Positions 46,564 through 63,925 of a DNA stretch of 64,000 nt are shown here, in pieces; within the stretch, counting starts at the first letter, position 1, and each line of letters starts with the position of its first letter. The notes under the pieces were generated by a model. The model was given only the letters and a program-made list of their open reading frames with translations, was not told the DNA's origin and ran no database searches. The DNA is from Eubacteriales bacterium. GTDB taxonomy: Bacteria; Bacillota; Clostridia; Christensenellales; Aristaeellaceae. A program made the position numbers and the translations under genes. Location of the stretch: the NCBI GenBank assembly GCA_028693055.1, contig JAQUWD010000005.1, forward strand, positions 40,340 to 104,339, given 5' to 3'.

Positions 46564-46643
46564 GCTGAACCTCCCGTAGATTGAGAAAAAGCAGGACGCC
46601 GAAACGCCCTGCAAGGAGGAGTGGTTTCTTACTATCGTTTGTT

Positions 46644-48500: not shown

Positions 48501-49325
48501 TCAGACAGGAGAACCGTATGCTCTGCCTACATAGCCCAGTTTGTATGATATTGTCGCCGCAGATTGTACAACTGTACTACGTGCAGATAAGAGCGCTTGG
48601 TCGTAGCTCTGCTCGGCGGAGTCGCGGAACCAATTCACGCTGATGGCGGCACAAACCTCGCTGTTACGTCTGCGAATGGGGCATGCCAAGCAGGCGGTGT
48701 CAGGCAGAGCGCCACTGTATGTGTTGTAGACAATGATATATTGGTTCTCTCGGACGCCTGCTAGGTCTTGCTCCAGCTCAGCAAAATCCGGCAATGGGTA
48801 AAATTCTGGCTGCTGCTCGTGACTGGTTTCAATCATCTGGCGTACCCTGTCAAAGGGCTTGAATGCCAGCATCGCCCGTCCCATGGCAGTCATATAGGCA
48901 GGCGTTCTTCGCCCGATGGCGTCGATCCAAGGAACGTTGAAAAAACGTGTTGAGAAGCCCAAATGAAAAATATCGCAGCCATCCAGCACACTTAGGTTAG
49001 AGTTCATGTTTAGCCGGTTGGACATGATATTCAGCTCCGGTAGGGCTGCATAGCGGATATCGTACTGCATTAAGGAAACCCCAGCCATCTCAATGATGTA
49101 CATCCCTACGGAGTAGGTATTGGTGACCTCATCATGCGCAAGAAACTTGGCGTTTACCATCGCCTGTAAGTAGCGGTATAGAGATGACGTGGGCATATCT
49201 ACCCGCTTGGCGATCTGGTTGACGGTGAGTACGGGCTTATTAAAGGTGAAGCAATCGAGAATTTGCTTCAGCTTGGATATAGAGGTATAACCAATTTCTT
49301 TGCTCATGGCTTTTTTGGCTTGCAT
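48501..49325 (-). CDS. IclR-family transcriptional regulator
   Basis: A 274-residue regulator with an N-terminal winged HTH (SISKLKQILDCFTFNKPVLTVNQIAKRVDMPTSSLYRYLQAMVNAKFLAHDE) and an IclR effector domain (LNIMSNRLNMNSNLSVLDGCDIFHLGFSTRFFNVPWIDAIGRRTPAYMTAMGRAMLAF). GAGGAGG lies seven bases before the ATG. It is divergent from the 12-gene sugar-acid operon starting at 49650. Proteins of this family often control sugar-acid degradation (KdgR is an example), which fits. A shared element in both promoters suggests autoregulation and control of the operon. Confidence 0.93.
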   Translation of the reverse strand: MQAKKAMSKEIGYTSISKLKQILDCFTFNKPVLTVNQIAKRVDMPTSSLYRYLQAMVNAKFLAHDEVTNTYSVGMYIIEMAGVSLMQYDIRYAALPELNIMSNRLNMNSNLSVLDGCDIFHLGFSTRFFNVPWIDAIGRRTPAYMTAMGRAMLAFKPFDRVRQMIETSHEQQPEFYPLPDFAELEQDLAGVRENQYIIVYNTYSGALPDTACLACPIRRRNSEVCAAISVNWFRDSAEQSYDQALLSARSTVVQSAATISYKLGYVGRAYGSPV

Positions 49326-49356: not shown

Positions 49357-49385
49357 ATTATAATATATTGAGAATAAAAGGTCAA
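49357..49385 (-). promoter_or_regulatory. Promoter of iclR with overlapping candidate operator
   Basis: On the minus strand TTGACC (49385-49380), 17 bases, TATAAT (49362-49357). On the plus strand the spacer contains ATATATTGAGAATAA (49363-49377), which matches 13 of 15 bases with 49527-49541. Confidence 0.7.
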
Positions 49386-49556: not shown

Positions 49557-49584
49557 TTGACAATGGTAAATTTCTCGCTACAAT
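49557..49584 (+). promoter_or_regulatory. Promoter of the sugar-acid operon
   Basis: TTGACA (49557-49562), 16-base spacer, TACAAT (49579-49584), with the start site about 60 bases before the binding-protein ATG. Confidence 0.75.
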
Positions 49585-49649
49585 GTACATATAAGGTTTG
49601 GAACGGAACGTCCAACAGCTTAAATACATACCATTAAGGAGGCTACCAC

Positions 49650-50957
49650 ATGAAGATGCGCTCTCTCCAAAAAATCCTTGCCATTCTAGCGGTGCTTACA
49701 CTCACGATCGGCATGGTCGGCGTTGCGTCAGCCGAGGACAAGGTACCCCTGAAGATCATGGTCTGGGGCCAGACCGCTACCATGGAAAATGGCGTCAAAA
49801 CGATTCTGGAAAACAACCCCGATTTGGCGGCGAAGATTGAAGTAGAAGTCGTTGCTGGCGGTCAGGGCGACCCTGAAGTGGCAGAAAAGTACCGTCTGGC
49901 ATTGGCTAGCGGCGTACCTTGCGCGGACATCATCCAGTTAAACTACACGCAGCTGTCTGAATTCGCGATGGCGGATGCGGTGCTGGAGCTTGACGATGTG
50001 CTTGGCAATGTCTGGGATGACATGGTTGACGCGGCCAAGGTATTGTGTACCTTTGACGGTAAGATTATGGCCGTTCCCGGCGCCATTAACACGAAACTGT
50101 ATTATTATCGTGCGGATATCTTCGATGAGTGCGGTGTCGATCCCACTACGTGGGAAACGGTGGATGATATGATCGCCGCATCCCAGAAGATCCAAGAAAA
50201 ATATCCCAATTGTTATATTTATAATATGAGCAAAGCGTCCGGCGCACAAGATTACGGTTTGTATATGTTGTTTATGTCCTTTAACGCCCGTTTCACCGAT
50301 GATGAAGGAAATTACGTTCTGGACAGTGATCCCGGTGTGCGCAAGGCCTTCGAGACTTTGAAGAAGTTCTACGATTCCGGCATTTGCTACGACGCGACCG
50401 ACTTTTCCAGCGGCTGGGAATATGGCTTGGCGCACGGCGAGCTTATCGGACAGCTGACCTCCAACTGGTTCCGTTACTTTGTGGGTGTGTATGCACCCGA
50501 TGACAGCGGAAAGTGGACGGCTTGCGAGTGGCCGACCGAAATCAAACAAGGCTCCGAGGCCGGCGGTTCCATCTACGTTATTCCTACCTTTAGCGAGCAC
50601 CCCGAAGAAGCAAAAGAATTCCTGCGCTTGTTCCGCGGTGATAGCAAAATGGCTGAAGAGCAGTTCTGGAGCAATAACGCTGTCCCGACCCTGAAATCGG
50701 CATTTGATAAGATCACAGAGCGTGCTGAACACTCCTATCTCATCGGTAACCATGATAAGTCCTACTGGCAGATCGAGTATGATTGCTTCAACAATGGCTA
50801 CTACTCCATCTTCCCGTATACACCGAAGGCTGCCGCAGAGATGAGCATTGTAAACTCCTATTCAACCAAGTTCTTCTCGGGTGAGAAGGATCTGGACACT
50901 ATGCTGTCCGAGCTGAATATGGATTTGACCATGCAAATAGGCAATCCGTTTGAATAA
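49650..50957 (+). CDS. Extracellular sugar-binding protein of the sugar-acid locus
   Basis: A 435-residue CUT1-type solute-binding protein. AAGGAGG lies seven bases before the ATG. A signal peptide (LQKILAILAVLTLTIGMVGVASA) without lipobox is followed by VPLKIMVWGQTATMENGVKTILENNPDLAAKIEVEVVAGG, the usual first beta-alpha unit. The middle (GKIMAVPGAINTKLYYYRADIFDECGVDPTTWETVDDMIAASQKI) and end (GGSIYVIPTFSEHPEEAKEFLRLF) match the family. It is first of twelve co-directional genes, followed by two permeases, glycosidases and sugar-acid enzymes, so it likely captures an oligosaccharide or glycoside. Confidence 0.92.
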   Translation: MKMRSLQKILAILAVLTLTIGMVGVASAEDKVPLKIMVWGQTATMENGVKTILENNPDLAAKIEVEVVAGGQGDPEVAEKYRLALASGVPCADIIQLNYTQLSEFAMADAVLELDDVLGNVWDDMVDAAKVLCTFDGKIMAVPGAINTKLYYYRADIFDECGVDPTTWETVDDMIAASQKIQEKYPNCYIYNMSKASGAQDYGLYMLFMSFNARFTDDEGNYVLDSDPGVRKAFETLKKFYDSGICYDATDFSSGWEYGLAHGELIGQLTSNWFRYFVGVYAPDDSGKWTACEWPTEIKQGSEAGGSIYVIPTFSEHPEEAKEFLRLFRGDSKMAEEQFWSNNAVPTLKSAFDKITERAEHSYLIGNHDKSYWQIEYDCFNNGYYSIFPYTPKAAAEMSIVNSYSTKFFSGEKDLDTMLSELNMDLTMQIGNPFE

Positions 50958-51034
50958 ACTTCACCATTATAACTTGCGAAATACTGGCGGGCAGGCAGCA
51001 ACGTCTGCCCGCCAGTTTCACAGGGGGATGAAAT

Positions 51035-51907
51035 ATGAGACTATATAAGAGGCAATGGTATATTCCCTATCTTTTCATTGCTCCGTTTGTTCTATCGTTC
51101 CTGATTTTCTTCGTGGTGCCAACGGTATACTCCTTTGCGTTAAGTTTTGCAAAGTATCCGGGATATGGCGTGGTTAAATGGATTGGGACGAAGAATTACT
51201 ACAACATCCTGCATTATAGCCGTTTTTGGGACGCGTTGGGGCGTACCATGTTTTACTGGATCGCAAAGTTTATTCCTGTTACAGTCATCAGCTTTATGAT
51301 TGCCGTATGCCTCAAAAGCTCGCTTTTAGGCAGAATTTCCAAGGTCTATAAACCTATCTTATTTATGCCGCAGGTCTGCGCTGTTACAGCCAGCGCACTT
51401 ATCTTCGGCTTGATCTTCGCCAACCAAGGCGGTGTGATCAACAGTCTTACGGGCACGACGTTTGCATGGACGGAAAGCGCGACGTGGTCTAAATGGGTCG
51501 TGCTGTTGATGATGGGATGGCGAGGAGTAGGGTGGTTTATGGTAGTGTACCTCTCCGGCCTTACATCCATCAACCCTGAGATTTACGAGGCTGCCCGTAT
51601 TGACGGGGCAAACGCGGCACAATCGCTGTTCCATATCACTGTGCCGCTCATGAAGCAAACCTTCCTGTTTGCCTTCATCATGGACGCCATCAGCTCCCTG
51701 CGCATGTATACCGAAGCCGCCGTGCTCACTGGTAACGCAGGCGGCAATGCGAGCGCAGTGGCGGAGGGATTGCTGAACCTACTAATGACCAATCTTAATT
51801 CTGGTAATTTTGGCATGGCATGTGCTTATGGATGGATCATCTTTGTCATCGTTTGCGTAGTGTCTATGGCGATCTTCGTAAGCATGAAGGAAAAGGAGGA
51901 TGCGTAA
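51035..51907 (+). CDS. CUT1 sugar ABC permease 1
   Basis: A 290-residue permease of the MalF/UgpA type: LYKRQWYIPYLFIAPFVLSFLIFFVVPTVYSFALSFAKYPG at the N-terminus, further membrane segments, and an EAA loop NPEIYEAARIDGANAAQSLFHITVPL. GGGGGATG lies before the ATG. It ends one base into the start of the next permease (TAATG). No ATPase is encoded in this operon. Confidence 0.93.
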   Translation: MRLYKRQWYIPYLFIAPFVLSFLIFFVVPTVYSFALSFAKYPGYGVVKWIGTKNYYNILHYSRFWDALGRTMFYWIAKFIPVTVISFMIAVCLKSSLLGRISKVYKPILFMPQVCAVTASALIFGLIFANQGGVINSLTGTTFAWTESATWSKWVVLLMMGWRGVGWFMVVYLSGLTSINPEIYEAARIDGANAAQSLFHITVPLMKQTFLFAFIMDAISSLRMYTEAAVLTGNAGGNASAVAEGLLNLLMTNLNSGNFGMACAYGWIIFVIVCVVSMAIFVSMKEKEDA

Positions 51908-52743
51908 TGAAACAGAGCTCACTAAGCAAGCTCCTACTCCATTGCTTTATTCTCCTGATGTGTCTGCTTGCTATTTATCCCGTATATATCATGATTTCAG
52001 GAGTGTTCAAGACCGCTTCTGAAATTGCGCTAAATCCCGGTGGATTGCCGAGCAGTTTAAGCCTCAAGAACTTCGAACGGCTATGGAGCTACAATAGCGG
52101 CTCTATACTGCGCAGCTATGGGAACGCGCTGTTCGTAACGTTTCTGCACACGGCGCTCACGATTGGGCTGTCGTCCATGGCGGCTTTTGCGTTTGCAAAA
52201 TACCGCTTCCGCGGCAGCAAGTGGATGTTTTTGTTCCTCATGGCTACGATGATGATTCCCATGGAATTAGGCATTACGCCGCTGTACATTATGTTCAGTC
52301 GTATTGGATGGCTCAATACTTATGTTGTGCAGATCATTCCTTTTTCCGCAAATGTGTTCGCTATGTTTATGATTCGACAGTACATGAATTCCATTGATAA
52401 TGCGTTATTAGAGTCTGCCATTATCGACGGTGCTAGCCATCTGCGTACGTTCACCAGCATCATGTTCCCGTGCTGCAAGCCGGTCTTGGGAGCAACGGCT
52501 CTCTTGGTGGCTCTTTCAAAATTCAACGATTATCTGTGGCCAAAAATCATGGTAACTGACGCTGCTCATACGCCCATTATGGTTATCCTGCCCACTATGA
52601 GCGAAAAGACAGATATCTTCGTCATTCCTAAGGAGCTGGTCATGACGGGCTGCGCAATTGTCATCATACCGCTCATCATCCTGTTCATTTGTTTACAAAA
52701 TGTATTCATGTCATCCGTAACCATTGGTTCCGTAAAGGGCTGA
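51907..52743 (+). CDS. CUT1 sugar ABC permease 2
   Basis: About 278 residues from ATG 51907 (MKQSSLSKLLLHCFILLMCLLAIYPVYIMISGVFK); GGAGG lies six bases upstream and the ATG overlaps the previous stop. Segments such as ALFVTFLHTALTIGLSSMAAFAFAKYRFRGSK and the EAA loop IDNALLESAIIDGASHLRTFTSIMFPCCKP are typical of MalG-like permeases, and the end VFMSSVTIGSVKG fits the subfamily. The ORF-track start lies inside the preceding gene and has no ribosome-binding site. Confidence 0.93.
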   Translation: MKQSSLSKLLLHCFILLMCLLAIYPVYIMISGVFKTASEIALNPGGLPSSLSLKNFERLWSYNSGSILRSYGNALFVTFLHTALTIGLSSMAAFAFAKYRFRGSKWMFLFLMATMMIPMELGITPLYIMFSRIGWLNTYVVQIIPFSANVFAMFMIRQYMNSIDNALLESAIIDGASHLRTFTSIMFPCCKPVLGATALLVALSKFNDYLWPKIMVTDAAHTPIMVILPTMSEKTDIFVIPKELVMTGCAIVIIPLIILFICLQNVFMSSVTIGSVKG

Positions 52744-52770
52744 GTAACAATTATTTGGAGGTAGTAATAT

Positions 52771-53679
52771 ATGAAGAAGTTTCGCGGCATTTTTGGCATT
52801 CTGGTAGCACCGTTTGATGATAAACTGGCATTGGATGTGGAGGATGTTAAAAGCCAGGTGGAGTTCTGCGTTAAGGGTGGCGTTCATGGTATTGTTGTGC
52901 CAGTAAACGCTAGCGAGTATTGGACGCTTAGCGAAACTGAGCGCAAGCTGCTGGTGAAGACCGCCGTAGAGTGCAACGCAGGTCGTCTGCCAATCGTGGC
53001 AGGTGTGTCCAGCCAGAGTATGCCCATATCCGTCGAATTGGCCCGCCATGCCAAGGAAGTGGGTGCGGATGCCGTGATTGCTGCACCTCCCACCTTATTA
53101 GGCCCAACTGCGGATCAGTTGATGGAATATTATAAACAGATTGCTGGTGCGGCTGAACTGCCGGTGTTTATTCAGAACCACACCCCCCCGTTTGGTGTAC
53201 CCATCAGCGCACCTATGTGTATGGAGATCGTGCGCAAGGTGGATGGAGTACAGTTTGTGAAGGAGGAGACGCAGTTTTCCAGCCATATGATCACCTCGCT
53301 AAACGAACTTGGCAAGCAGCTGCCTGATCGCTACTTAGGTACCTTTGGCGGCAAGGCTTGCCGTTACCTCATTGACGAACACAGCCGCGGCGCGCTTGGC
53401 TGCATGCCAGCCTGCCAGATTGCGGACGTTATGGCGCTGATCTGGGATCTGCTTGATGAAGGAAAGAAAGCAGAAGCAGAAAAGATCTTCCTTGCCACAC
53501 AGCCGCAGATCACAATGGAGTTTGCATACGGGATGACGATGTATAAAAACGTACTCAAGTATCGCGGCATTATTAAAACAGCCAACTTCCGCGGTACCGG
53601 TATGGCAGCGCTGGATGAGCAGGATCAGATTGAACTTCGACGCGTGATCAAATATGTGGAGCCTTACTTTAGAGTGTAA
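52771..53679 (+). CDS. DHDPS/NAL-family lyase or dehydratase (sugar-acid type)
   Basis: A 302-residue class I aldolase-fold enzyme. The Schiff-base lysine is Lys164 in DGVQFVKEET. The family's catalytic Tyr motif (YNxP) is replaced by FIQNHTPP, with Gln135 at the Tyr position, and the GTTGE loop by PVNASEYWTLSETER. So it is not dihydrodipicolinate synthase; related proteins act as 2-keto-3-deoxy sugar-acid aldolases or dehydratases. It lies between the transporter and an enolase-superfamily dehydratase, which suggests that it processes a 2-keto-3-deoxy acid (inference). Spacing to its neighbours is 27 bases on each side. Confidence 0.85.
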   Translation: MKKFRGIFGILVAPFDDKLALDVEDVKSQVEFCVKGGVHGIVVPVNASEYWTLSETERKLLVKTAVECNAGRLPIVAGVSSQSMPISVELARHAKEVGADAVIAAPPTLLGPTADQLMEYYKQIAGAAELPVFIQNHTPPFGVPISAPMCMEIVRKVDGVQFVKEETQFSSHMITSLNELGKQLPDRYLGTFGGKACRYLIDEHSRGALGCMPACQIADVMALIWDLLDEGKKAEAEKIFLATQPQITMEFAYGMTMYKNVLKYRGIIKTANFRGTGMAALDEQDQIELRRVIKYVEPYFRV

Positions 53680-53706
53680 TACCTGCAGAGACAGGAGGAT
53701 ACTATC

Positions 53707-54849
53707 ATGAAAATCACGGATCTGAAAACGCTTGTGGTGGGCAACCCATGGAAGAATTGGATTTATGTAAAGTTGGAGACAGATGACGGACTGATTGGCT
53801 GGGGAGAAAGCACGGGCGGCCTCACCGCCGCTCCCGAAAAGGGACTCTTAGAGGAGCTGCGCAGTCGTGTTATTGGTCTTGATCCCACGAATGTAACAGG
53901 TGTGCTGGACTTCTTGCGCAAGACCCTCTTTCTGACCTCTGGTGGAAGCGCTGTATCTGGAATTGAAATGGCTTGCTGGGATATTATCGCTAAAAAGGCG
54001 AATATGCCCTTGTGGCAGTTGTTGGGCGGCAAGGTGCGTCCACATATTCGCTGCTACGCCAATGGCTGGTATCAAGGTCCGCGCGAGCCGGAGCGCTTTG
54101 CGGAGCGTGCCCAAGAAATTGTAGCCATGGGCTATACGGCGCTAAAGTTTGATCCATTCGGTAAAGCATATAAATTCATGAGCCGGGATGAGGAATTATA
54201 TGCCATGAAAATTGTACGTGCAGTGCGTGGAGCGGTGGGGGATGAAGTGGATCTTCTCATTGAGGCGCATGACCGTTTCAACCAAACGGAGGCTATTCGT
54301 ATTGGACAGATGCTAGAGGAGTTCCGTCCCTTCTGGTATGAGACGCCCGTTATTTCCGATAATTTTGACCGTCTAAATGAGGTGGCGCGCCGTGTACATG
54401 TGCCGGTCATCGCCGGTGAGCGAACGTCTAATCCGCGTAGTCTTGTAAAGTTGCTGGCTGGCGGTGCCATCGATATCGTGAATCCGGAAATTTTAGGCTG
54501 CGGTGGTATCATCGGGCTTTTGGATTGCTTTGCCATCGCCCGCTCCTTTGACGCATACGTCGCGCCGCATAACGCACAAAGTCCGTTCTGTACGGCTGTA
54601 AACGTGCACGTAGACATTACGCAGCCTAATTTGCTGATACAAGAATGCTTTGACGATTCTAGCGTTGGGTGGACGGACGATGTTTTGTCGGGATACCCCA
54701 AGGTTGTGAATGGCTTTATCGAGCCATCCGATGCGCCTGGTATTGGAGTGACCATCAACGAAAAGGAAGCGGCGAAGCATCCTTACGGCGACAAGAATTT
54801 TCTATGGATGTTTGAAGATGGCTGGGAAAAACGCGAGGGCAATAAGTAG
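53707..54849 (+). CDS. Enolase-superfamily sugar-acid dehydratase (mandelate racemase subgroup)
   Basis: A 380-residue enzyme of the mandelate racemase/muconate lactonizing branch, closest by eye to D-galactonate dehydratases. The N-terminal capping domain opens MKITDLKTLVVGNPWKNWIYVKLETDDGLIGWGEST. Metal ligands are probably Glu186 (IEAHDRFN), Glu212 (WYETPV) and Glu238 (AGER); His188 and His288 (YVAPHNAQSP) are candidate general acid/base residues. It would turn an aldonic acid into a 2-keto-3-deoxy acid, feeding the kinase and aldolase encoded downstream. The exact sugar acid is not readable. AGGAGG precedes the ATG. Confidence 0.9.
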   Translation: MKITDLKTLVVGNPWKNWIYVKLETDDGLIGWGESTGGLTAAPEKGLLEELRSRVIGLDPTNVTGVLDFLRKTLFLTSGGSAVSGIEMACWDIIAKKANMPLWQLLGGKVRPHIRCYANGWYQGPREPERFAERAQEIVAMGYTALKFDPFGKAYKFMSRDEELYAMKIVRAVRGAVGDEVDLLIEAHDRFNQTEAIRIGQMLEEFRPFWYETPVISDNFDRLNEVARRVHVPVIAGERTSNPRSLVKLLAGGAIDIVNPEILGCGGIIGLLDCFAIARSFDAYVAPHNAQSPFCTAVNVHVDITQPNLLIQECFDDSSVGWTDDVLSGYPKVVNGFIEPSDAPGIGVTINEKEAAKHPYGDKNFLWMFEDGWEKREGNK

Positions 54850-54988
54850 CACTCACAACGGTTCAGTCAACCTACTAATTGTCGGGATGTTTCTTGTAGG
54901 GCAATTTTCGACGGTGTAAATACGGCGCCCTGCCGTGTGGTCAGAAGCCGCGCACTGTAGGACGCCGTGCCATGAAGGAGGAATCAGC

Positions 54989-55792
54989 TTGAGGCTACAG
55001 GATAAGGTAATTGTCGTTACCGGCTCCACAAAGGGTATCGGCGCTGCTATTGCCAAGGTCTGCGCCGCTGAGGGAGCAAAGGTTGTGGTGTCGGGGCGCA
55101 GTAAGGCGGACGGAGAATGCGTCTTGGCACAGATTGTTCAAGCGGGTGGAGACGCTCGTTTCATCCAATGTGACGTTTCAAACGTGGATAGTGTTCGCAC
55201 ATTGATAGAAGGAACTGTACAAGCCTATGGCCGTATCGATGGATTGGTGAATAACGCGGGTGTTTTTCCGCGGGTGAGCCTGCTGGACGTCACTGAATCT
55301 GATTATGAGTCCGTAATGGAGATCAACGTGAAGGGCGCGTTCTTTTGTGCACAGAGCGCGTTGCGTTATATGATTGAACAGCACTGCGGTTCAATTGTCA
55401 ATATTGGCTCCACGCATTGGCGAATGGGCGGGCCCACGCAGCCGGTTTATTCAATGAGCAAGGGCGCGCTGCACACGCTTACGCAGCATATCGCTCAGCA
55501 CTTCTGCCGCAAGGGGATACGCTGCAACTGGGTTACGGTAGGCTGGGTGCTTTCGGACGGGGAGATGGATTTAACTCGCTCTGAGGGACATAATGAAGCG
55601 TACCTTCAGAAAATGCTGCCTATGGCCATGCCCTCTGGCCGGTTTCAGACAGGCGAAGACATTGCCATGGCATGCGTGTACCTGCTTAGTGATGAAGCAA
55701 CGCAGGTTACGGGCACGGATATTGAAGTAACGGGTGGTTTCAAGCCAGAAGCGATTCCTACCATTGATTTATCTTCTCTACAGGGCAAATAA
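54989..55792 (+). CDS. Short-chain dehydrogenase/reductase (sugar or sugar-acid dehydrogenase)
   Basis: About 267 residues from a TTG at 54989 (RLQDKVIVVTGSTKGIGAAIAK), chosen because AAGGAGG lies seven bases upstream. The TGSTKGIG dinucleotide loop, NNAG and the YSMSK active site (Tyr-x-x-x-Lys) with preceding Ser in IVNIGSTHW are all intact. It is a classical NAD(P)-dependent SDR. In this operon it may oxidise a free sugar to its lactone, whose hydrolysis is then done by the SMP-30 enzyme; a KduD-like role on a 2-keto-3-deoxy acid is an alternative. A 139-bp gap separates it from the dehydratase. Confidence 0.88.
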   Translation: MRLQDKVIVVTGSTKGIGAAIAKVCAAEGAKVVVSGRSKADGECVLAQIVQAGGDARFIQCDVSNVDSVRTLIEGTVQAYGRIDGLVNNAGVFPRVSLLDVTESDYESVMEINVKGAFFCAQSALRYMIEQHCGSIVNIGSTHWRMGGPTQPVYSMSKGALHTLTQHIAQHFCRKGIRCNWVTVGWVLSDGEMDLTRSEGHNEAYLQKMLPMAMPSGRFQTGEDIAMACVYLLSDEATQVTGTDIEVTGGFKPEAIPTIDLSSLQGK

Positions 55793-55806
55793 GGAGGCCG
55801 ATAGTC

Positions 55807-57150
55807 ATGAAACAACGCAAAATCGCTATCATCGGCGCAGGCAGCGCACAATTTTCAGGCGGCATCATTCGCGACCTGTGTGTGACGCCTAACCTGTATG
55901 GCACCAAGCTGACGCTGATGGACGTGGATGAACAGCGCTTGCACTTTATAACGGAAATGGGTAAGAAGCTTGCAAAAGAGCTGAACGGGGAACTGATATT
56001 TGAATCAACAACAGATCGCGCCGCTGCGCTGGACGGGGCGGATTATGTCATCAACACCGCACAGGACGGCGGGCACAGCTGGGCGAGCGCTATGATGGAG
56101 ATGGGGCGCGAAGCCGAACTGCCTAATGGCTGTATACCGATGGTGTACCAAATGCTGTTCCTGCTGGATGTGTCCCACGATATCGAAAAATATTGTCCAA
56201 ACGCATTGCAGATTCAGTCTGCCAACCCCGTGTTTGAGGGCGGCACGGCTATCCACCGTCTTACAAAGGCGCGCACAATCGGTCTATGCCATGGTCACTA
56301 TGGCTATCGTGAGATCGCAGACGTGCTGGGGCTTGACCGCAAGGACGTAACCGCGCGGATGTATGGCTTCAATCATTGGATTTGGATGACTGATTTCCGC
56401 TACAAGGGCCAAAACGCTTATCCTATGATTGACAAATGGATTGAGGAAAAGGCTGAGGAATACTGGAGCCATGATGATCGTAAATATTCCGATCAACAGA
56501 TGAGCCGCGCAGCTATCCATCAGTATCATATGTTTGGCCTGATGCCCATTGGGGACACGCCACGTATGATGGACTTTCCCAACATGATCGGTTGGCTATA
56601 CAATGAAAATTTAGATGTGAAAAAATACTGGTACAGCAAACAGGGCGGGTTTGACAGTGCAGAGGGCTGGACTCAATATCTGGAGGACTTGAACCAGAAC
56701 CTGCGCAACATTGAACGTGTAGCTACACACCCGGAGGCGCGTGTCAGCGAGGTATTCGAGCCAGTACAGTCTGACGAGCAAATCGTGCCTATTATCGAAT
56801 CGTTGGAGTGCGATATCAAACGCGTGTTTCAGGTGAACATCGCCAATGAGGGACAGCTGGTGGAAGGGTTCCCGGAGGATATCGTGGTGGAGTGCGAGGG
56901 CGTTATCTCGGGTGCAGGCATCAATGGTGTACATATGGGACGCCTGCCTGAACGCGTCATGGCAACGGCGATGAATCCTCGTTTCGCTCAATGCGAGCTT
57001 CTGAACCAAGCGGTCAAGGGCGATCGGGAGGCTTTGCGTGTATCGCTTTTGATGAATCACGGGGCAAAATCTCTAAAGCAGGTAGATACGCTGATTGATA
57101 AATGGCTGACGGATCCGCGTAACAAGTATGCCGACGTCTTTCAATCATAA
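55807..57150 (+). CDS. GH4-family glycosidase (alpha-galactosidase/galacturonidase type)
   Basis: A 447-residue NAD+- and metal-dependent glycosidase, which works by transient oxidation at C3 and elimination rather than simple hydrolysis (known for GH4). Seen here: the Rossmann start RKIAIIGAGSAQFSGGIIRDL, LTLMDVDEQRL, DYVINTAQDGG, QSANPVFEG and the metal-binding IGLCHGHYGY. GAGG precedes the ATG by eight bases. It is cytoplasmic. LplD, an alpha-galacturonidase, is in the same family, so a uronic-acid-containing glycoside is possible, but alpha-glucosidase or galactosidase cannot be excluded. Confidence 0.9.
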   Translation: MKQRKIAIIGAGSAQFSGGIIRDLCVTPNLYGTKLTLMDVDEQRLHFITEMGKKLAKELNGELIFESTTDRAAALDGADYVINTAQDGGHSWASAMMEMGREAELPNGCIPMVYQMLFLLDVSHDIEKYCPNALQIQSANPVFEGGTAIHRLTKARTIGLCHGHYGYREIADVLGLDRKDVTARMYGFNHWIWMTDFRYKGQNAYPMIDKWIEEKAEEYWSHDDRKYSDQQMSRAAIHQYHMFGLMPIGDTPRMMDFPNMIGWLYNENLDVKKYWYSKQGGFDSAEGWTQYLEDLNQNLRNIERVATHPEARVSEVFEPVQSDEQIVPIIESLECDIKRVFQVNIANEGQLVEGFPEDIVVECEGVISGAGINGVHMGRLPERVMATAMNPRFAQCELLNQAVKGDREALRVSLLMNHGAKSLKQVDTLIDKWLTDPRNKYADVFQS

Positions 57151-57178
57151 TGCACACTCCTAAGGAAAGGAACAGATA

Positions 57179-58036
57179 ATGAAAACAGGCAAAGCGGAAG
57201 TCTTTGTGCCTAATCGTTACCTATTGGGAGAGGGCCCCTGTTACGCGAGCGGCAGGCTCAGCTGGGTGGATATTAAGACGGGAACATTGAATGTATTGGA
57301 GGGGAGCGGTAAGATCCGCTCCCTCCAGACTGGCCAGTATCTGGGCGCAGCTATTCCCACCGAGTCTGGGCGATATATCGCCTGTATGACTACAGGCTTG
57401 TATTTACTGGAGGACGATGCCATCCTGCACAGACTGGATATCCCCTACGGGCTTGAAACCTATCAGCGCTTCAACGACGCCAAGTGTGATCCGCGGGGGC
57501 GGCTGTTTGCTGGCACCATGCCCCTGTTTATGAAGTATGCGCGGCAGGGAGGCAAGCTATATCGCTATGAAGGGGACGCGTCCCAGCCGCTTGACGCCTT
57601 TGTTGTCGTTCCCAACGGCATGGCGTGGACGGCGGATGAGCGCACACTCTATCTAGTAGACACGGCCTTTGCGAACATTGACGCATTTGACTACGATCCC
57701 GAAACGGGAATGATCGCGAATCGCCGCAATGTCATACACATTGAGGGCGGCGCTCCCGACGGTATGACGATTGATGCAGAGGACAAGCTGTGGGTGGCTA
57801 TCTGGGGCGGAGGCGAGGTGCGTCGTTACGATCCGGCTACCAGTGAAGTGTTAGAGACTGTGAAAGTGAATGTGCAGCAAGTGTCATCCTGCTGCTTCGG
57901 AGACAATGATCTGCGAACGCTTTACATCACCACATCGTCAGAGGGCGAGAACGAAAATCAACAGGCTGGTTGCGTCTTTGCCTACCGCACGGAAACGGTG
58001 GGCACGGCGACCCGCCTATTCAACGACAAGTACTGA
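57179..58036 (+). CDS. SMP-30/gluconolactonase-family lactonase
   Basis: A 285-residue six-bladed propeller of the SMP-30/regucalcin family. Motifs: LLGEGPCY with the metal-binding Glu, RFNDAKCDPRGRLFAGTM, FVVVPNGMAWTADERTLYLVDT and APDGMTIDAEDKLWVAIWGGGEVRRYDP, giving the Glu-Asn-Asn-Asp metal set expected for lactonases. It would open a sugar lactone formed by a dehydrogenase to give the aldonic acid used by the enolase-superfamily dehydratase. AAAGGAA lies before the ATG. Its 3' end is 17 bases before the aldolase. Confidence 0.9.
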   Translation: MKTGKAEVFVPNRYLLGEGPCYASGRLSWVDIKTGTLNVLEGSGKIRSLQTGQYLGAAIPTESGRYIACMTTGLYLLEDDAILHRLDIPYGLETYQRFNDAKCDPRGRLFAGTMPLFMKYARQGGKLYRYEGDASQPLDAFVVVPNGMAWTADERTLYLVDTAFANIDAFDYDPETGMIANRRNVIHIEGGAPDGMTIDAEDKLWVAIWGGGEVRRYDPATSEVLETVKVNVQQVSSCCFGDNDLRTLYITTSSEGENENQQAGCVFAYRTETVGTATRLFNDKY

Positions 58037-58053
58037 TAGCAAGGAGAATCACA

Positions 58054-58713
58054 ATGGATATCGTGAAGATCACCAAAGAAAAAAAACTTATCGCCATTGT
58101 GCGTGGTCTGGGCGCGGACAAGCTACTGAGACTCGCACAGGCTTTGCTGGATGGCGGTATCTGCATGATAGAGATCACGTTTGACCAGAAGCACCCTGAC
58201 ACATGGACGGACACGGCGCGTGCAATCCGGCTGCTTGCCGAACAATACGCTGGGAGAATCTATCCCGGGGCAGGCACCGTTATGACCGTGGAGCAGGTGA
58301 AAATTGCCCATGAGGCGGGAGCGTTGTACATTATCTCTCCGAATGTAAATGAGGAGGTAATCCGGGAAACAAAGAAACTAGGAATGGCCTCCTATCCCGG
58401 TGCACTGACACCCACCGAGGCTGCATTCGCGGGCGAATGCGGTGCGGATATCATCAAGGTATTCCCGGCCGGAGTATTGGAGCCCGCCTACATTAAGGCG
58501 ATCCGCGCACCGCTGTCGCATCTCGATTTTATGGCTGTTGGCGGCGTAAATGAGCAGAACGCTTCTGATTTCATGAATGCAGGGGCTGTGGGCTTGGGCG
58601 TAGGCGGCAACCTGGTGAACAAGCGGCTGATTGAGAACGGAGAATTCGATAAGATCACTGCGTTGGCGGCACAGCTTGTGGAAGCAGTTCGTGCGAAAGG
58701 GACAAACGCATGA
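58054..58713 (+). CDS. eda: KDPG-type 2-dehydro-3-deoxy-phosphogluconate aldolase
   Basis: About 219 residues from ATG 58054 (MDIVKITKEKKLIAIVRG), with AAGGAG seven bases upstream; the ORF-track start overlaps the lactonase gene. The Schiff-base lysine is Lys135 (GADIIKVFPAG), the catalytic Glu is Glu40 (CMIEITF), and GAGTVMT and SPNVNEEVI are conserved. It cleaves 2-keto-3-deoxy-6-phospho-sugar acids to pyruvate and glyceraldehyde 3-phosphate. It overlaps the kinase gene by four bases (ATGA), so kinase and aldolase form a coupled pair. Whether it prefers the gluconate or galactonate isomer is not visible. Confidence 0.93.
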   Translation: MDIVKITKEKKLIAIVRGLGADKLLRLAQALLDGGICMIEITFDQKHPDTWTDTARAIRLLAEQYAGRIYPGAGTVMTVEQVKIAHEAGALYIISPNVNEEVIRETKKLGMASYPGALTPTEAAFAGECGADIIKVFPAGVLEPAYIKAIRAPLSHLDFMAVGGVNEQNASDFMNAGAVGLGVGGNLVNKRLIENGEFDKITALAAQLVEAVRAKGTNA

Positions 58714-59735
58714 AGAAAGTGATTACCTTCGGCGAGATCATGATGCGGTTAAATCCAGAGGGCTACCTGCGCTTTGCACAGGCTACTCGCTTTGAAGCAA
58801 CCTATGCAGGCGGAGAGGCCAATGTAAGCGTTTCTTTGGCAAACTACGGTGAGGAGACAGCCTTCGTTACAAAATTACCGGAACATGATATTGGTACAAA
58901 CGCCTTAAACGCGCTGCGTCAGTATGGGGTGGATACGACGCGCATTCTACGCGGCGGTTCTCGTTTGGGCTTATACTATGTAGAAAAAGGTGCGTCTCAG
59001 CGCGGAAGCAAGGTTATTTATGACCGTGCTAACTCTGCTATAGCAATGTCAAAACGTGAGGAATACGACTGGCCAAGGCTTTTGGAAGGGGCAGATTGGT
59101 TTCATTTTACCGGTATCACGCCCGCGCTGGGCGGTGAGCTGCCAGATATCTGTCTGGATGCGCTACAAGAAGCCAAGCGCATGGGGCTGACTGTGTCGTG
59201 CGACCTCAATTACCGAGGCAAACTGTGGACACGGGAGAAAGCCGGAGAGATTATGACCAATCTAATGCCCTATGTGGACGTGTGTATCGCCAACGAGGAA
59301 GACGCGAAGGATGTGTTTGGCATTGCGGCGAAGGATACGGATGTATCCTCTGGAAAGCTGAACCGTGACGGCTACATCAGCGTTGCAAGCCAATTGATGG
59401 AGCGTTTCCATTTTAAGGCGGTTGCCATTACATTGCGTGGCTCCGTCTCAGCTAGTGATAATAACTGGTCTGGACTTCTGTATGACGGCAAGGCTGCCTT
59501 CTTCGCCACCAATTACCTCATCCATATCGTGGATCGTGTAGGGGGCGGAGATAGCTTTGGCGGTGGACTCATCCACGCTATGAGAAAATGGCCGGAGAAT
59601 CCGCAGAAAGCCATTGACTTTGCTGTGGCAGCCAGTTGCCTCAAGCAGACGATCGAGTTTGATTTCAATCATGCATCCGAGGCGGAAGTGCTGGCGCTGG
59701 CGGACGGTAATGCGTCAGGTCGTGTACAGCGGTAA
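58710..59735 (+). CDS. kdgK: 2-Keto-3-deoxygluconate-type sugar kinase (PfkB family)
   Basis: A 341-residue ribokinase-fold enzyme. It begins KKVITFGEIMMRLNPEGYLRFAQA, with the GGEANVSVSLA substrate-loop region, CDLNYRGKLW and ANEEDAKDVFG as in KDG kinases, and the catalytic motif DRVGGGDSFGGGL with Asp281. It would phosphorylate a 2-keto-3-deoxy sugar acid for the aldolase encoded immediately upstream. The start overlaps the aldolase stop by four bases. Confidence 0.92.
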   Translation: MKKVITFGEIMMRLNPEGYLRFAQATRFEATYAGGEANVSVSLANYGEETAFVTKLPEHDIGTNALNALRQYGVDTTRILRGGSRLGLYYVEKGASQRGSKVIYDRANSAIAMSKREEYDWPRLLEGADWFHFTGITPALGGELPDICLDALQEAKRMGLTVSCDLNYRGKLWTREKAGEIMTNLMPYVDVCIANEEDAKDVFGIAAKDTDVSSGKLNRDGYISVASQLMERFHFKAVAITLRGSVSASDNNWSGLLYDGKAAFFATNYLIHIVDRVGGGDSFGGGLIHAMRKWPENPQKAIDFAVAASCLKQTIEFDFNHASEAEVLALADGNASGRVQR

Positions 59736-59750
59736 AAATAAGGAGGAATA

Positions 59751-61292
59751 ATGATGACTTATATGCCGGAACTCCGGGAATTGAACGGCCAAAAGGTGCT
59801 ATATGTGGATAATCAGCCGTTTCTGATCCTCGGCTTTCAGCTGAATTGCGACTCCTGCTACGATCCGGACGTCATTGACAAGCTAATGCGCAATGCGCGA
59901 GCGATGGGCTGTAATACCGTGGCGCTTTTATTGTACTGGCGCCTTATCGAGCCTCAGGAGAGCGTGTTTGATTACTCTATTTTGGATAGCATGCTCCAAT
60001 CCGCCAACAAGCACGATCTGCGTATCGTTCTTGTATGGTTTGGCTCCTACAAGAACGCGACCATGCATTACGCCCCGGATTGGATTATCAACGATCACGA
60101 AACATACCGTCGCGTCCACGCGGCTAACGGCGACGAGATCCCGTATGTGGCATGTTATAACTGCGGCGAACTGATTGAGAAGGACAAGCGCGCTGTAACG
60201 AATGTATTTGCACATTTACGGGATAAAGACACGACGCAACGCGTCATCTTGTTTCAGGTGAATAATGAGACGGGGCTTCTGGGCGGAACCTCACGCTGTC
60301 ATTGTCCTGTTTGTGAGGAACGCTATCATGAGAAGGACTATCCGGCACTGTATGGACAGCGTGCGGATGAGGCGTTCTCCGCAGAATGCCTGTTGGCGTT
60401 CCAAGAGCAAATTGCCGAATCTGCGAAGGCGGTCTATCCGCTGCCCTGCTACATGAACGCGTGGTTGGCTTTTCCCACGCCCGACTCGATTGGCGGCTTT
60501 ACTTATCCGGCTGGCGGCCCCAATTACCGCGTGCTTGACGTTTATGTGGAGCAAAAGAAATATATCGACTTTGTGTCCCCTGATATCTATGTGCCGAGTT
60601 ATCGCGACTTCCATCGCGTGTGCCGGGATTACAAGCGGCTGGGTAATCCGTTATACGTGGCAGAGCATGCGCTTGGCAGCACTAGTCGCGCCTATAAAAA
60701 CGTTTATTATGCTTTTGGAGAGTTTGCGTCGTTGGGTTTTGATCCGTGGGCAATTGACTGCGCATACCCCGATGTGATGGAGAAACCGTTATGCGATGTG
60801 GTGCACGAGCGCTGGAATGACGAGGCCTATGAAATGCTCTCTTCATACCGTCCCATTCGCGAGGCGATGATTCCTGTGGCGAAGGCCATGGGAACAGATA
60901 GGCTGAAATATTGGGTGCAGGAAGAGTCGGAGACGGATTTGGCACTGGACTTCGGCGATGTATTCGTGAAAGTTAGCTACTGCAAGCCCAAGAACGGACA
61001 AAGTCGCGGCATGGCTATTCGATTGAGCACAAACCAGTTTGTGGTATTGGGCTGCAACAGCATGGTGGGATTCCTGCGGGAAGATGGTTCTGTAATCGAG
61101 ATGTCGCGCTCTGAACGTGGGCATTTCGATGGGGAAACCTTTATAAAGGAAGGCGAGAACACCATAATGGGGCAGGATCACGGCAAGCATCGTCTATTGA
61201 TCCGCGAGGGTAAGGTGCACTTCATTGAATTGAATGTAGAGGGCAAACTGCCGGATTCTCGCACGGATATCATGAAGATGGTAGAGATCTGA
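59751..61292 (+). CDS. Clan GH-A glycoside hydrolase (GH35/GH42-like)
   Basis: A 513-residue TIM-barrel glycosidase. MMTYM can start at 59751 or 59754; AAGGAGG lies upstream. NQPFLILGFQLNCDSCYDPDVIDKLMRNARAMGCNTVALLLYWRLIEPQES is the usual GH35/42-like entry strand. The acid/base Glu is probably Glu173 (FQVNNETG) and the nucleophile Glu305 (YVAEHALG). A C-terminal beta domain of about 120 residues follows (VKVSYCKPKNGQSRGMAIRLSTNQFVVLGCN). There is no signal peptide, so it acts in the cytoplasm, probably removing a beta-linked sugar from the imported glycoside. The precise GH family is uncertain. Confidence 0.85.
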   Translation: MMTYMPELRELNGQKVLYVDNQPFLILGFQLNCDSCYDPDVIDKLMRNARAMGCNTVALLLYWRLIEPQESVFDYSILDSMLQSANKHDLRIVLVWFGSYKNATMHYAPDWIINDHETYRRVHAANGDEIPYVACYNCGELIEKDKRAVTNVFAHLRDKDTTQRVILFQVNNETGLLGGTSRCHCPVCEERYHEKDYPALYGQRADEAFSAECLLAFQEQIAESAKAVYPLPCYMNAWLAFPTPDSIGGFTYPAGGPNYRVLDVYVEQKKYIDFVSPDIYVPSYRDFHRVCRDYKRLGNPLYVAEHALGSTSRAYKNVYYAFGEFASLGFDPWAIDCAYPDVMEKPLCDVVHERWNDEAYEMLSSYRPIREAMIPVAKAMGTDRLKYWVQEESETDLALDFGDVFVKVSYCKPKNGQSRGMAIRLSTNQFVVLGCNSMVGFLREDGSVIEMSRSERGHFDGETFIKEGENTIMGQDHGKHRLLIREGKVHFIELNVEGKLPDSRTDIMKMVEI

Positions 61293-61315
61293 CAGCCAGC
61301 ATACAAGGAGGGCGC

Positions 61316-62473
61316 ATGGAGAACTTTCGATTTTGCAATGGCACGGATGTACGCTTTGGCAAAGGAATGCTCAATTGTCTGCCGGAACTTTTAAAGCCTT
61401 ATGGCAACAGGGTTTTGATGACCTATGGCGGCGGCAGTATCAAGCGCACAGGGCTGTATAGCCAGATACGCATGCTGCTAACGGATTTTGAAGTGTTCGA
61501 GCTATCCGGCATTGAGCCAAATCCACGCATCCAAAGCGTCTATGCGGGACAGGCACTGTGTGCAGACAAAAAGATCGATATTATATTGGCTGTAGGTGGC
61601 GGTAGCACCATCGACTGTTCTAAGGCTATCGCGGCGGCGGCATGCTCCGAAGAGGATGCGTGGCAGCTGGTGTTGAATCCATCTAAGATCAAGCGCGCAT
61701 TGCCCATTGTGACTGTATTGACCCTTGCGGCTACGGGCAGCGAGACGAATTGCGGCGGTGTGATCAGCAACCCGGCTACCAGCGAGAAATTAGGCTTTCA
61801 GAACCCTAGTGTGCGCCCTAAAGCCGCGGTTTTAGATCCAGAACTCACTTATACAGTAAGCAGCAAACAAACGGCTGCTGGAGCGGCGGATATTTTCTCA
61901 CATGTAGTGGAGCAGTATTTCTCGCGAGAGCCTTGCTATGTGACGGATGCCATCTGTGAGGGAGTTATGAGGACGGTTGTGCGCTACGCACCTCTTGCGC
62001 TGCGCGAACCAAGGTGCTACGAGGCGCGCGCGCAGTTGATGTGGGCGAGCACGCTGGGCCTGAATATGATCTGTTCGCTTGGAAAGCGCACAGCGTGGAG
62101 CTGTCACCCTATTGAGCATGAAGTTAGCGCCTATTATGACGTTACACACGGCGTTGGCTTGGCCATCTTGACGCCCCGCTGGATGCGCTACGCATTGAAC
62201 GAGCAAACGCTGGACTGCTTTGTGCGCTATGCCCAAAATGTGTGGGGGATAAAGGATAACAACGACCGCTGGGCGACGGCGCGTGAGGGCATCGACCGCA
62301 CGACGGCATTCTTTGGAAGCCTCAATATTCCCGCAACACTAAGCGAGCTGGGTGTTGGTAATGAGCACTTCGAACAGATGGCACAGCACGCTATCGCGTA
62401 TAATGATTTGAAAAACGCCTTTGTCCCCATGGATGAAAAAACCGTATGGAACGTCCTGAATGCCAGCCTGTGA
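61316..62473 (+). CDS. Iron-containing alcohol dehydrogenase (butanol-dehydrogenase-like)
   Basis: A 385-residue group III alcohol dehydrogenase. MENFRFCNGTDVRFGKGMLNCLPELLKPYGNRVLMTYGGGSIKRTG is the typical N-terminus. AVGGGSTIDCSKAIA binds the dinucleotide; metal ligands come from AADIFSHVVEQYF (Asp and His), WSCHPIEHEVSAYYDVTHGVG (two His). It reduces aldehydes or ketones with NAD(P)H. In this operon it could reduce the glyceraldehyde or another aldehyde made by an aldolase, or reoxidise the NADH made by the SDR; the substrate is not known. It is the last gene of the operon. Confidence 0.92.
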   Translation: MENFRFCNGTDVRFGKGMLNCLPELLKPYGNRVLMTYGGGSIKRTGLYSQIRMLLTDFEVFELSGIEPNPRIQSVYAGQALCADKKIDIILAVGGGSTIDCSKAIAAAACSEEDAWQLVLNPSKIKRALPIVTVLTLAATGSETNCGGVISNPATSEKLGFQNPSVRPKAAVLDPELTYTVSSKQTAAGAADIFSHVVEQYFSREPCYVTDAICEGVMRTVVRYAPLALREPRCYEARAQLMWASTLGLNMICSLGKRTAWSCHPIEHEVSAYYDVTHGVGLAILTPRWMRYALNEQTLDCFVRYAQNVWGIKDNNDRWATAREGIDRTTAFFGSLNIPATLSELGVGNEHFEQMAQHAIAYNDLKNAFVPMDEKTVWNVLNASL

Positions 62474-62516: not shown

Positions 62517-62830
62517 GGGGCTGTTGCACAAGCAAAATGTGCAGCGGCTCCTTTGGCTTAAGCGGAGCCTTAGCCCTTGCAGCAGACCGCACGGTGAGGA
62601 CAGCCGTAGCAATCCTCGCGCCTGTAACGAGTAACCTGGCGAACAGTACCGTCCATGGTGCGTTCCGCTGCCGTTCCCACAGAAACCAGCATCCGCCCCG
62701 CTTTGCACAGGTTGTAGTCGCTGGGGGCATAGTCGGGCATGCTTTTGGCACGACCGTTTTGCGCCTTGAACTTCTTAGTACGACTGCTGTTGTAATTGTT
62801 GAAAGAGCGAAAGAGAAAAACGGTCAAGGG
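62517..62830 (-). mobile_element. Remnant of an IS1182-like insertion sequence
   Basis: On the minus strand an 85-residue frame (62570-62827) reads KKFKAQNGRAKSMPDYAPSDYNLC and later YRREDCYGCPHRAVCCKG, which match the C-terminal DDE-transposase part of IS1182-type elements (gCPxRxxC motif). A shifted frame continues with PLKPKEPLHILLVQQP. The plus strand at 62517 begins GGGGCTGTTGCACAA, a typical terminal repeat for such elements. The 5' part and other end are missing, so it is a dead fragment. It separates the sugar-acid operon from the BMP gene. Confidence 0.65.
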
Positions 62831-62920: not shown

Positions 62921-63925
62921 ATGAAGAAGAGCCTGTCTTTGCTCCTTTGCATCGCCATGATCGTTACATTGGGTCTTGGCCTTGTCAATGCCAATGCCGA
63001 AAAGACGGAGGATACGGTCAAGGTAGCCTTGTGCGTAGCGGAAACCTTGGGAGATAAAGGATTTTATGATAGCGCCAACGAAGGGCTGAAGGAACTGGAA
63101 AACGACTATGGCGTTGAGGGCAGCGTGGTTGAGTGTAAGAGCGACGCCAGCGCCTATGAGCCCGCGCTAATCGAGGCTGCCGAGCAGAACGATATCGTTG
63201 TGGCGGTAGGTTGGCAGTTCTGGGACGGCCTGACGGCAGTGGTTCCCGAAATGCCGGATACGAAGTTCATTTTTATTGATAACGGTTTGGACGGCGTAGG
63301 GGATAACCTTTTGTCCATCACCTATAAGGAAAATCAGGGTAGCTTTTTGGCGGGCTATATCGCCATGAAGATGGCTGCCTCGAATACCGTCGGCGTTATC
63401 GGCGGCGAAGATAGCGACACGATCAATAACTTCATCGTAGGCTATAAACAAGGCGCACTGTACGCCAATCCTAATGGTACGGTGCTGGATCCCGTTTATA
63501 CCGACGATTACGAAGCGCCCGATAAGGGCAAGGAAGCAGCCCTGAGCCTGTATGCCAAAGGCGCGGACGTGGTGTTCGCTGTGGCGGGCAAGACGGGCCT
63601 CGGCGTATTTGAAGCCGGCGCGGAGCAGGGAAAATATGCCATCGGCGTGGATAGCGATCAAAAAGCGGAAAACCCAGATGTGGTGATTTGCTCCATGATG
63701 AAAAAGGTAGGCGATAGCATTTATCAGGCCATCGCTCAGTATTTGGACGAGGGAGATTTCGCCGGTGGAACCATCTGGGACGCGGACGTCACCTCCGGGC
63801 TGATCGAAATCGGCTATGGCGACGAAACCATGGCCCAGCAGGTCACCGATGAACTGAAAGCTGAGGTAGACGAGCTGAGAGACAAGATTGTTTCCGGCGA
63901 GATCGTAGTGGAAAGCACACGGTAG
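62921..63925 (+). CDS. BMP-family ABC transporter substrate-binding protein
   Basis: A 334-residue extracellular binding protein of the basic membrane protein/Med family, which usually carries nucleosides. A signal peptide (KKSLSLLLCIAMIVTLGLGLVNANA) is followed by VKVALCVAETLGDKGFYDSANEGLKEL, DIVVAVGWQFWDGLTAVVPEMPDTKFIFIDN, ENQGSFLAGYIAMKMAASNTVGVIGG and GVDSDQKAENPDVVICSMMKKVG, all typical. There is no lipobox cysteine at the cleavage site, unlike most members. An ATG six bases upstream starts a two-codon frame (ATG AAA TGA) that overlaps the real ATG. Permease and ATPase genes are expected to the right of the window. Confidence 0.9.
   Translation: MKKSLSLLLCIAMIVTLGLGLVNANAEKTEDTVKVALCVAETLGDKGFYDSANEGLKELENDYGVEGSVVECKSDASAYEPALIEAAEQNDIVVAVGWQFWDGLTAVVPEMPDTKFIFIDNGLDGVGDNLLSITYKENQGSFLAGYIAMKMAASNTVGVIGGEDSDTINNFIVGYKQGALYANPNGTVLDPVYTDDYEAPDKGKEAALSLYAKGADVVFAVAGKTGLGVFEAGAEQGKYAIGVDSDQKAENPDVVICSMMKKVGDSIYQAIAQYLDEGDFAGGTIWDADVTSGLIEIGYGDETMAQQVTDELKAEVDELRDKIVSGEIVVESTR

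Follow-up and report, generated by a model that had tools for sequence, protein, structure and literature searches.

Which glycoside is degraded by a cluster of sugar-acid genes in an Aristaeellaceae genome, and by what route, is the question raised by positions 49557–62473 of the DNA analysed here (the window), a 64,000-nucleotide stretch of contig JAQUWD010000005.1 from Eubacteriales bacterium assembly GCA_028693055.1. An initial annotation had read the locus as a single operon acting on a sugar that it left unnamed. We propose that it is an accessory catabolic operon linked to an IclR-family regulator, which would import a galactoside-like glycoside, cleave it inside the cell and degrade the product by the De Ley-Doudoroff route, with a branch served by a protein of the dihydrodipicolinate synthase (DHDPS) family; we give this reading about an even chance of being correct. 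The gene combination and its recurrence across several phyla are new; the individual steps are already known.

Every family named in the initial annotation was recovered on the forward strand by open reading frame (ORF) listing, Pfam and NCBIfam assignment and matches to PDB sequences, with order and positions confirmed (Table 1): ABC solute-binding protein (SBP), permeases A and B (PermA, PermB), DHDPS-family protein, enolase-superfamily dehydratase, short-chain dehydrogenase/reductase (SDR), glycoside hydrolase family 4 (GH4) enzyme, SMP-30 lactonase, aldolase, PfkB kinase, GH35 enzyme and iron alcohol dehydrogenase (Fe-ADH). The locus is predicted to form one transcription unit with the IclR gene divergent, as judged from its sequence signals: position 49557 is the −35 element of a promoter-like match, a terminator-like hairpin follows the last gene, and the intergenic gaps are mostly short, the widest being about 140 bases 5′ of the SDR gene, whose start is most likely the TTG at 54989. 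Catalytic residues are kept wherever they were checked (GH4, GH35, DHDPS and SMP-30). A plausible gene is present for each of the import, deglycosylation, oxidation, lactone-opening, dehydration, phosphorylation and cleavage steps first claimed, and the set recurs elsewhere. The description of the locus as self-contained needs qualifying, as no ABC ATPase was found among the family assignments of the operon genes. Both the window and the contig end soon after the next gene 3′ of the operon, a BMP/PnrA-type binding-protein gene (62921–63925) that directly follows it at the contig end and is probably a separate unit.

The locus is a conserved module and not a chance cluster. Scanning GTDB with an alignment of GH4 proteins returned 79 GH4 loci. 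Of the 21 closest GH4 relatives, 11 had the dehydratase gene in the flanking sequence retrieved, as against 1 of the other 58, which are more distant (Fisher p ~4e-7), with identical counts for DHDPS; some of these genomes are related and so do not count as independent, and contig ends truncate some loci. Eisenbergiella tayi (locus L070) and two Lachnospiraceae (L068, L069) carry, in this order, SBP-PermA-PermB-DHDPS-dehydratase-SDR-GH4-GH35-SMP30. In Treponema (L085 and L086), SBP-PermA-PermB-GH4-GH35-DHDPS is divergent from dehydratase-SDR-aldolase-PfkB, and L085 also holds SMP-30. Paenibacillus cremeus, P. piri and P. contaminans have DHDPS and the dehydratase with one or two GH4 genes, an Oscillospiraceae bin has DHDPS-GH4-GH4-GH35 with a 69% identical dehydratase on another contig, and much of the module also occurs in Chloroflexota, and a Caldilineae bin has GH4-GH35-DHDPS-SDR-dehydratase. 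The most conserved parts are GH4 (46–68% identity to relatives in module loci), the dehydratase (68–70% in Lachnospiraceae and Treponema) and DHDPS, and the least conserved is the kinase-aldolase pair: DHDPS is present in 12 of the 79 loci, the pair in 2. Among the loci compared, Fe-ADH occurs only in the window. The identity matrices of GH4, dehydratase, DHDPS, GH35, SDR and SMP-30 correlate with one another (r 0.68–0.94).

The module is accessory and probably horizontally acquired, because the dehydratase exceeds 50% identity in only 2 of 390 other genomes of the class, dehydratase and module were found in none of the 16 congeners examined, and the operon's G+C content (0.46–0.54) lies below that of most of the window's first 20 kb (0.55–0.58). 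No dehydratase match passed 1e-100 in a phylum sample of 398 other genomes, and among sampled genomes of the family to which the window belongs the best GH4 matches reached only 35–36% identity. A group of dehydratases that is widespread in Clostridia (39–40% identity) was set aside as belonging to a different context, with SDR neighbours mostly at 21–33% and no GH4 or GH35 recognised in short flanks. The locus had been called unusual; this holds for the combination, which is rare, but less so for oxidative loci as such, since a dehydratase relative was found in 27 of 391 genomes of the class, in several of them next to SDR and aldolase genes, and the window's own genome has two more such loci, described below.

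Other genes accompany the module in some genomes. In L068–L070, a conserved ORF (complete copies 796–832 aa) on the reverse strand, spanning about 0.8–3.6 kb of these loci, lies upstream of it. Neither Pfam nor PDB sequences gave a match to this ORF, and the model predicted for it (pLDDT 42.8) was too poor to use, though it hints at β and α/α-barrel parts and possibly at an undescribed glycosidase. Downstream of the P. cremeus module we found a PhyH-family dioxygenase-like gene (L073:12727-13554) followed by a Gfo/Idh/MocA gene, and an ORF of similar appearance comes after the module of P. piri (L075).

Deglycosylation is assigned to two enzymes. The GH4 protein keeps its NAD and metal sites, with GAGS, C161, N189 and H190 invariant. 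It shares the NAD motif, the CHGHYG motif and the Cys/His metal site with Thermotoga maritima AglA (1obb), but unlike AglA it sits in an oxidative operon. The second enzyme, first placed in clan GH-A, can be refined to GH35 with a DUF5597 domain. Its best PDB relatives are the β-galactosidases 8faa, 7kmn, 3u7v and 5jaw, and the catalytic glutamates E173 and E305 are kept, with a PF01301 score of 22.8 against a cut-off of 27. We place both enzymes inside the cell because no signal peptide is evident on GH35 and GH4 requires NAD.

Of the enzymes that would act next, the SDR scores 220.8 bits against the broad subfamily PRK07231, "glucose 1-dehydrogenase" (cut-off 215), and a search of the PDB did not discriminate among SDR substrates. 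The SMP-30 protein matches regucalcin and keeps the metal-site motifs GEGP, RFND, PNGM and PDGM, as expected of an aldonolactonase, an enzyme that not every De Ley-Doudoroff variant requires. The dehydratase scores 319.6 bits with the gluconate/galactonate dehydratase model NF040790 (cut-off 750) and 229.5 bits with PRK14017 (cut-off 311); it is 30% identical to E. coli DgoD, with which its putative metal and acid/base residues were aligned by eye.

The kinase and aldolase narrow the choice of sugar. The aldolase has LIAIV in β1 and AVGGV in β7, as does E. coli DgoA, whereas Eda has P-V and Thr; stereopreference for 2-keto-3-deoxy-6-phosphogalactonate (KDPGal) is thereby indicated, being set by sites I12/V20 and V154/T161 (DgoA versus Eda; PMC4915726). 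Across the module genomes other than P. cremeus and the Caldilineae bin, most have a DgoA-type aldolase, and several also carry a separate Eda-type paralogue without the DgoA pattern. The PfkB protein, a predicted kinase of 2-keto-3-deoxygluconate (KDG) or 2-keto-3-deoxygalactonate (KDGal), scores 554 bits with NF041633 and 224.7 bits with NF041332 (cut-off 440), both under cut-off. The E. tayi locus holds instead a DgoK-family (PF05035) KDGal kinase, the sole DgoK-family gene of that genome. Two Lachnospiraceae genomes without the pair at the locus have an aldolase-PfkB pair elsewhere (kinase 69–70% identical), which in one case lies close to another GH4 gene. In a Lachnospiraceae bin (genome G539) that also has the module, a second GH4 (44%) lies at L177:7463-12053 with a glyceraldehyde-3-phosphate-reductase-like aldo-keto reductase and a nearby aldolase-PfkB pair.

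We favour a sugar with the galacto configuration at C4 and a De Ley-Doudoroff route because of the DgoA-type motif, the DgoK gene at the E. tayi locus and the β-galactosidase relatives of GH35; the sugar, at first unspecified, is thus narrowed to one predicted to give a C4-galacto 2-keto-3-deoxy acid. The lower half of the module resembles the E. coli dgo operon (dgoR-K-A-D-T), sharing an enolase-superfamily dehydratase, a predicted KDGal kinase step and a KDPGal-type aldolase with the same stereo-motif. Unlike dgo, the window operon would start from glycosides through GH4 and GH35, adds SDR and SMP-30, and has ABC import and an IclR regulator; PfkB also takes the place of DgoK, E. tayi excepted.

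In the best-supported chain, whose steps are well documented for the enzyme families concerned and whose substrates are predicted, a small galactoside-like glycoside would be imported by the binding-protein transporter with an ATPase borrowed from a gene elsewhere. GH4 and GH35 would cleave it on the cytoplasmic side, freeing an aldose with the galacto configuration at C4, which the SDR would oxidise to a lactone and SMP-30 would open to an aldonate. The dehydratase would yield a 2-keto-3-deoxygalactonate-type acid, to be phosphorylated by PfkB and split by the aldolase into pyruvate and glyceraldehyde 3-phosphate. At the keto-acid the route may branch: a homologue that cannot be phosphorylated, such as a C5 (L-arabinose-like) one, would most likely be taken by the DHDPS protein, acting as a 2-keto-3-deoxy-acid dehydratase. 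Reduction of an aldehyde end product by Fe-ADH would restore the NAD(P)H balance.

Several observations weigh against this proposal. The dehydratase, kinase, aldolase, GH4 and Fe-ADH all score below curated cut-offs for specific activities, broad subfamilies aside, and no semialdehyde dehydrogenase that would serve the DHDPS branch was recognised in the operon. Elsewhere in the genome lies a second oxidative locus (G000:C53 92660-102511; L064:9661-19512) that encodes two enolase-superfamily dehydratases, of which one is 45% identical to E. coli DgoD, together with an aldolase, an SDR, a PF10282 lactonase, an aldose 1-epimerase and two permeases. Its aldolase has Thr at β7 although it sits beside this closer DgoD homologue, so the stereo-motif is an imperfect guide. 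A third oxidative locus (G000:C64 32106-39107; L174:12107-19108) has an IlvD/Edd-type dehydratase, an SDR, and a paired aldolase and PfkB kinase with 56% and 72% identity, respectively, to the operon copies; copies of the kinase-aldolase pair also adjoin an IlvD-type dehydratase. These two loci weaken plain galactose as the substrate. Further, a galactokinase-family (PF10509) gene is present in all 11 module-bearing genomes, although PF10509 by itself cannot tell galactokinase apart from all of its relatives, and an AraA-family gene in 7 of the 11; a route for plain galactose or arabinose is therefore probably in place already.

The ubiquity of galactokinase-family genes and the separate DgoD-like locus have led us to consider a rarer KDGal-yielding sugar (talose, gulose or idose), or else a 6-deoxy sugar or substituted galactose beyond the reach of galactokinase, oxidised because the Leloir route fails; we regard this as unlikely. 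The same logic has been shown for sulfofucose (PMC12421959) and for L-glucose, whose degradation via D-idonate and KDGal is described in PMC12632266. The sulfofucose cluster of Paracoccus wurundjeri (SfcH, SfcD, SfcF, SfcE) likewise brings together an SDR (PF13561), a lactonase, ABC import and a PF13378/PF02746 dehydratase, but it has a PF03328 aldolase and no kinase step (PMC12421959), whereas the window has a PF01081 aldolase, PfkB and glycosidases. We rejected a sulfofucose or sulfo-Entner-Doudoroff assignment because the operon has a kinase and lacks a PF03328-type KDSGal aldolase. The lack of this aldolase also tells against the rarer-sugar alternative, as do the operon's kinase and phosphoaldolase, which imply a free 6-OH on at least one substrate.

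What the DHDPS protein does bears on the remaining alternatives. The initial annotation had called it a second lyase, which is less likely, as its motifs and predicted fold are both nearest to L-2-keto-3-deoxyarabonate (L-KDA) dehydratase. In the locus orthologues, V-N-A-S-E and I-Q-N replace the G-T/S-T/G-G-E and Y-N-x-P of DapA, NanA and YagE, and the Schiff-base residue Lys164 is kept; L-KDA dehydratase has A-N-F-S-E and V-Q-D at the corresponding places, and the Caldilineae copy departs from the other orthologues in the first motif. The top fold matches of the predicted model (pLDDT 93.6) are L-KDA dehydratase structures (TM ~0.91, 26% identity), though other DHDPS-fold proteins score only slightly lower, which makes the fold alone a weak guide. 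The protein shares with Azospirillum L-KDA dehydratase (7c0c/3fkk) this fold, the Schiff-base lysine and, where aldolases have their motifs, N-x-S-E and Q-N/D. It differs in being only 26–27% identical, in its glycoside-utilisation context and in having no adjacent semialdehyde dehydrogenase recognised. It is probably a 2-keto-3-deoxy-acid dehydratase and not a second aldolase, as its motifs and model suggest. Its substrate is possibly a C5 homologue, proposed because L-arabinonate shares the C2-C4 configuration of D-galactonate.

Extending this, we tentatively suggest, at a rather low probability, a transferable module with two branches that is shared across phyla. Promiscuous upper enzymes would accept both hexose and C5 or 6-deoxy galacto-configured glycosides, and the fork would be set by chain length or the 6-OH, with the kinase and KDPGal aldolase taking hexoses and a new DHDPS-family dehydratase the rest, in fermenters that also have a probable Leloir route.

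Alternatively, the sugar might be L-arabinopyranose. α-L-Arabinopyranose is the C5 analogue of β-D-galactose, and β-L-arabinopyranose that of α-D-galactose. The core chain would then be GH4/GH35, SDR, SMP-30, dehydratase and DHDPS as a true L-KDA dehydratase, with the kinase-aldolase pair a later add-on for galactose. The greater constancy of DHDPS over the pair in the 79 loci and its nearness in motif and fold to L-KDA dehydratases, themselves DHDPS family members (PMC7374468), agree with this. We consider it improbable, however, given that no α-ketoglutaric-semialdehyde dehydrogenase was recognised in the operon, that identity to L-KDA dehydratase is only ~27%, that most module genomes have AraA-family genes and that DgoK in E. 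tayi points to C6 substrates.

A non-phosphorylative aldolase function for DHDPS, parallel to the kinase route, would give pyruvate and glyceraldehyde, glycolaldehyde or lactaldehyde, the aldehyde being reduced by Fe-ADH. KDG aldolases such as E. coli YagE do belong to the DHDPS family, and the YqhD-like Fe-ADH, with its lactaldehyde-reductase similarity, would explain redox balance in a fermenter. Loss of the Y-N-x-P tyrosine and of the GTxGE-type motif in all or nearly all orthologues, together with the restriction of Fe-ADH to the window, makes this very doubtful. Finally, a semi-phosphorylative Entner-Doudoroff operon of gluco type, in which a glucoside is converted through gluconate and KDG to the phosphate KDPG, would suit the match of GH4 to the α-glucosidase AglA, the SDR subfamily score and a dehydratase model that covers gluconate as well as galactonate, but it is quite unlikely in view of the KDPGal-type motif, the E. 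tayi DgoK and the β-galactosidase relatives of GH35.

If the De Ley-Doudoroff proposal is right, gut and termite-gut fermenters, including the cultured E. tayi, would oxidise galactoside-like compounds despite an apparent galactokinase; "termite-gut" for Treponema L085 and L086 is a reading of the isolate names of these metagenome-assembled genomes. The proposal would then predict a substrate class outside current annotation, and GH4 and GH35 enzymes and a DHDPS subgroup would gain a testable function. Searches of the open-access literature, which leave most subscription journals uncovered, found no description of the module; they covered the De Ley-Doudoroff pathway together with galactonate dehydratase, GH4 in combination with GH35 or with galactonate, and Eisenbergiella or Treponema.

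Table 1. Predicted features of the operon and its divergent regulator, in window coordinates.
Feature	Position	Strand	Basis and remarks
IclR-family regulator, divergent from operon	48501..49325	-	PF09339 + PF01614
Promoter-like site of IclR gene	49357..49385	-	11/12 consensus match; consensus only
Promoter-like site of operon, TTGACA-16-TACAAT	49557..49584	+	11/12 consensus match, best on + strand; consensus only
ABC solute-binding protein	49650..50957	+	PF13416/PF01547; 49–50% identity in Lachnospiraceae
ABC permease A	51035..51907	+	PF00528; 64–67% identity in Lachnospiraceae
ABC permease B	51907..52743	+	PF00528; ORF list start 51820, likely start 51907
DHDPS-family protein, L-KDA dehydratase-like	52771..53679	+	PF00701; best PDB sequence/fold matches 7c0c/7c0d/3fkk
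Enolase-superfamily sugar-acid dehydratase	53707..54849	+	PF02746/PF13378
SDR, predicted aldose 1-dehydrogenase	54989..55792	+	PF13561; TTG start after AAGGAGG
GH4 NAD-dependent glycosidase, AglA-like	55807..57150	+	PF02056 (116.9 bits)/PF11975; best match 1obb
SMP-30/gluconolactonase-family lactonase	57179..58036	+	PF08450 228 bits
KDPGal-type class I aldolase	58054..58713	+	PF01081
PfkB kinase, predicted KDG/KDGal kinase	58710..59735	+	Start overlaps aldolase stop by 4 bases
GH35 β-galactosidase-like enzyme with DUF5597 domain	59751..61292	+	PF02449/PF18120
Fe-ADH, YqhD-like	61316..62473	+	PF00465; PRK15138 285 bits, below cut-off
Terminator-like hairpin closing operon	62517..62551	+	14-pair stem + short T-rich tail; consensus only

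The putative regulator travels with the module in several hosts: an IclR gene adjoins the same genes in Treponema L085, Paenibacillus L073 and L075, Spirochaetia L082 and Oscillospiraceae L080. In the window, the region upstream of the IclR gene encodes a 525-aa right-handed β-helix/NosD-like protein (45091–46668, reverse strand) and, beside it, a CBM9-domain protein (46644–47438).

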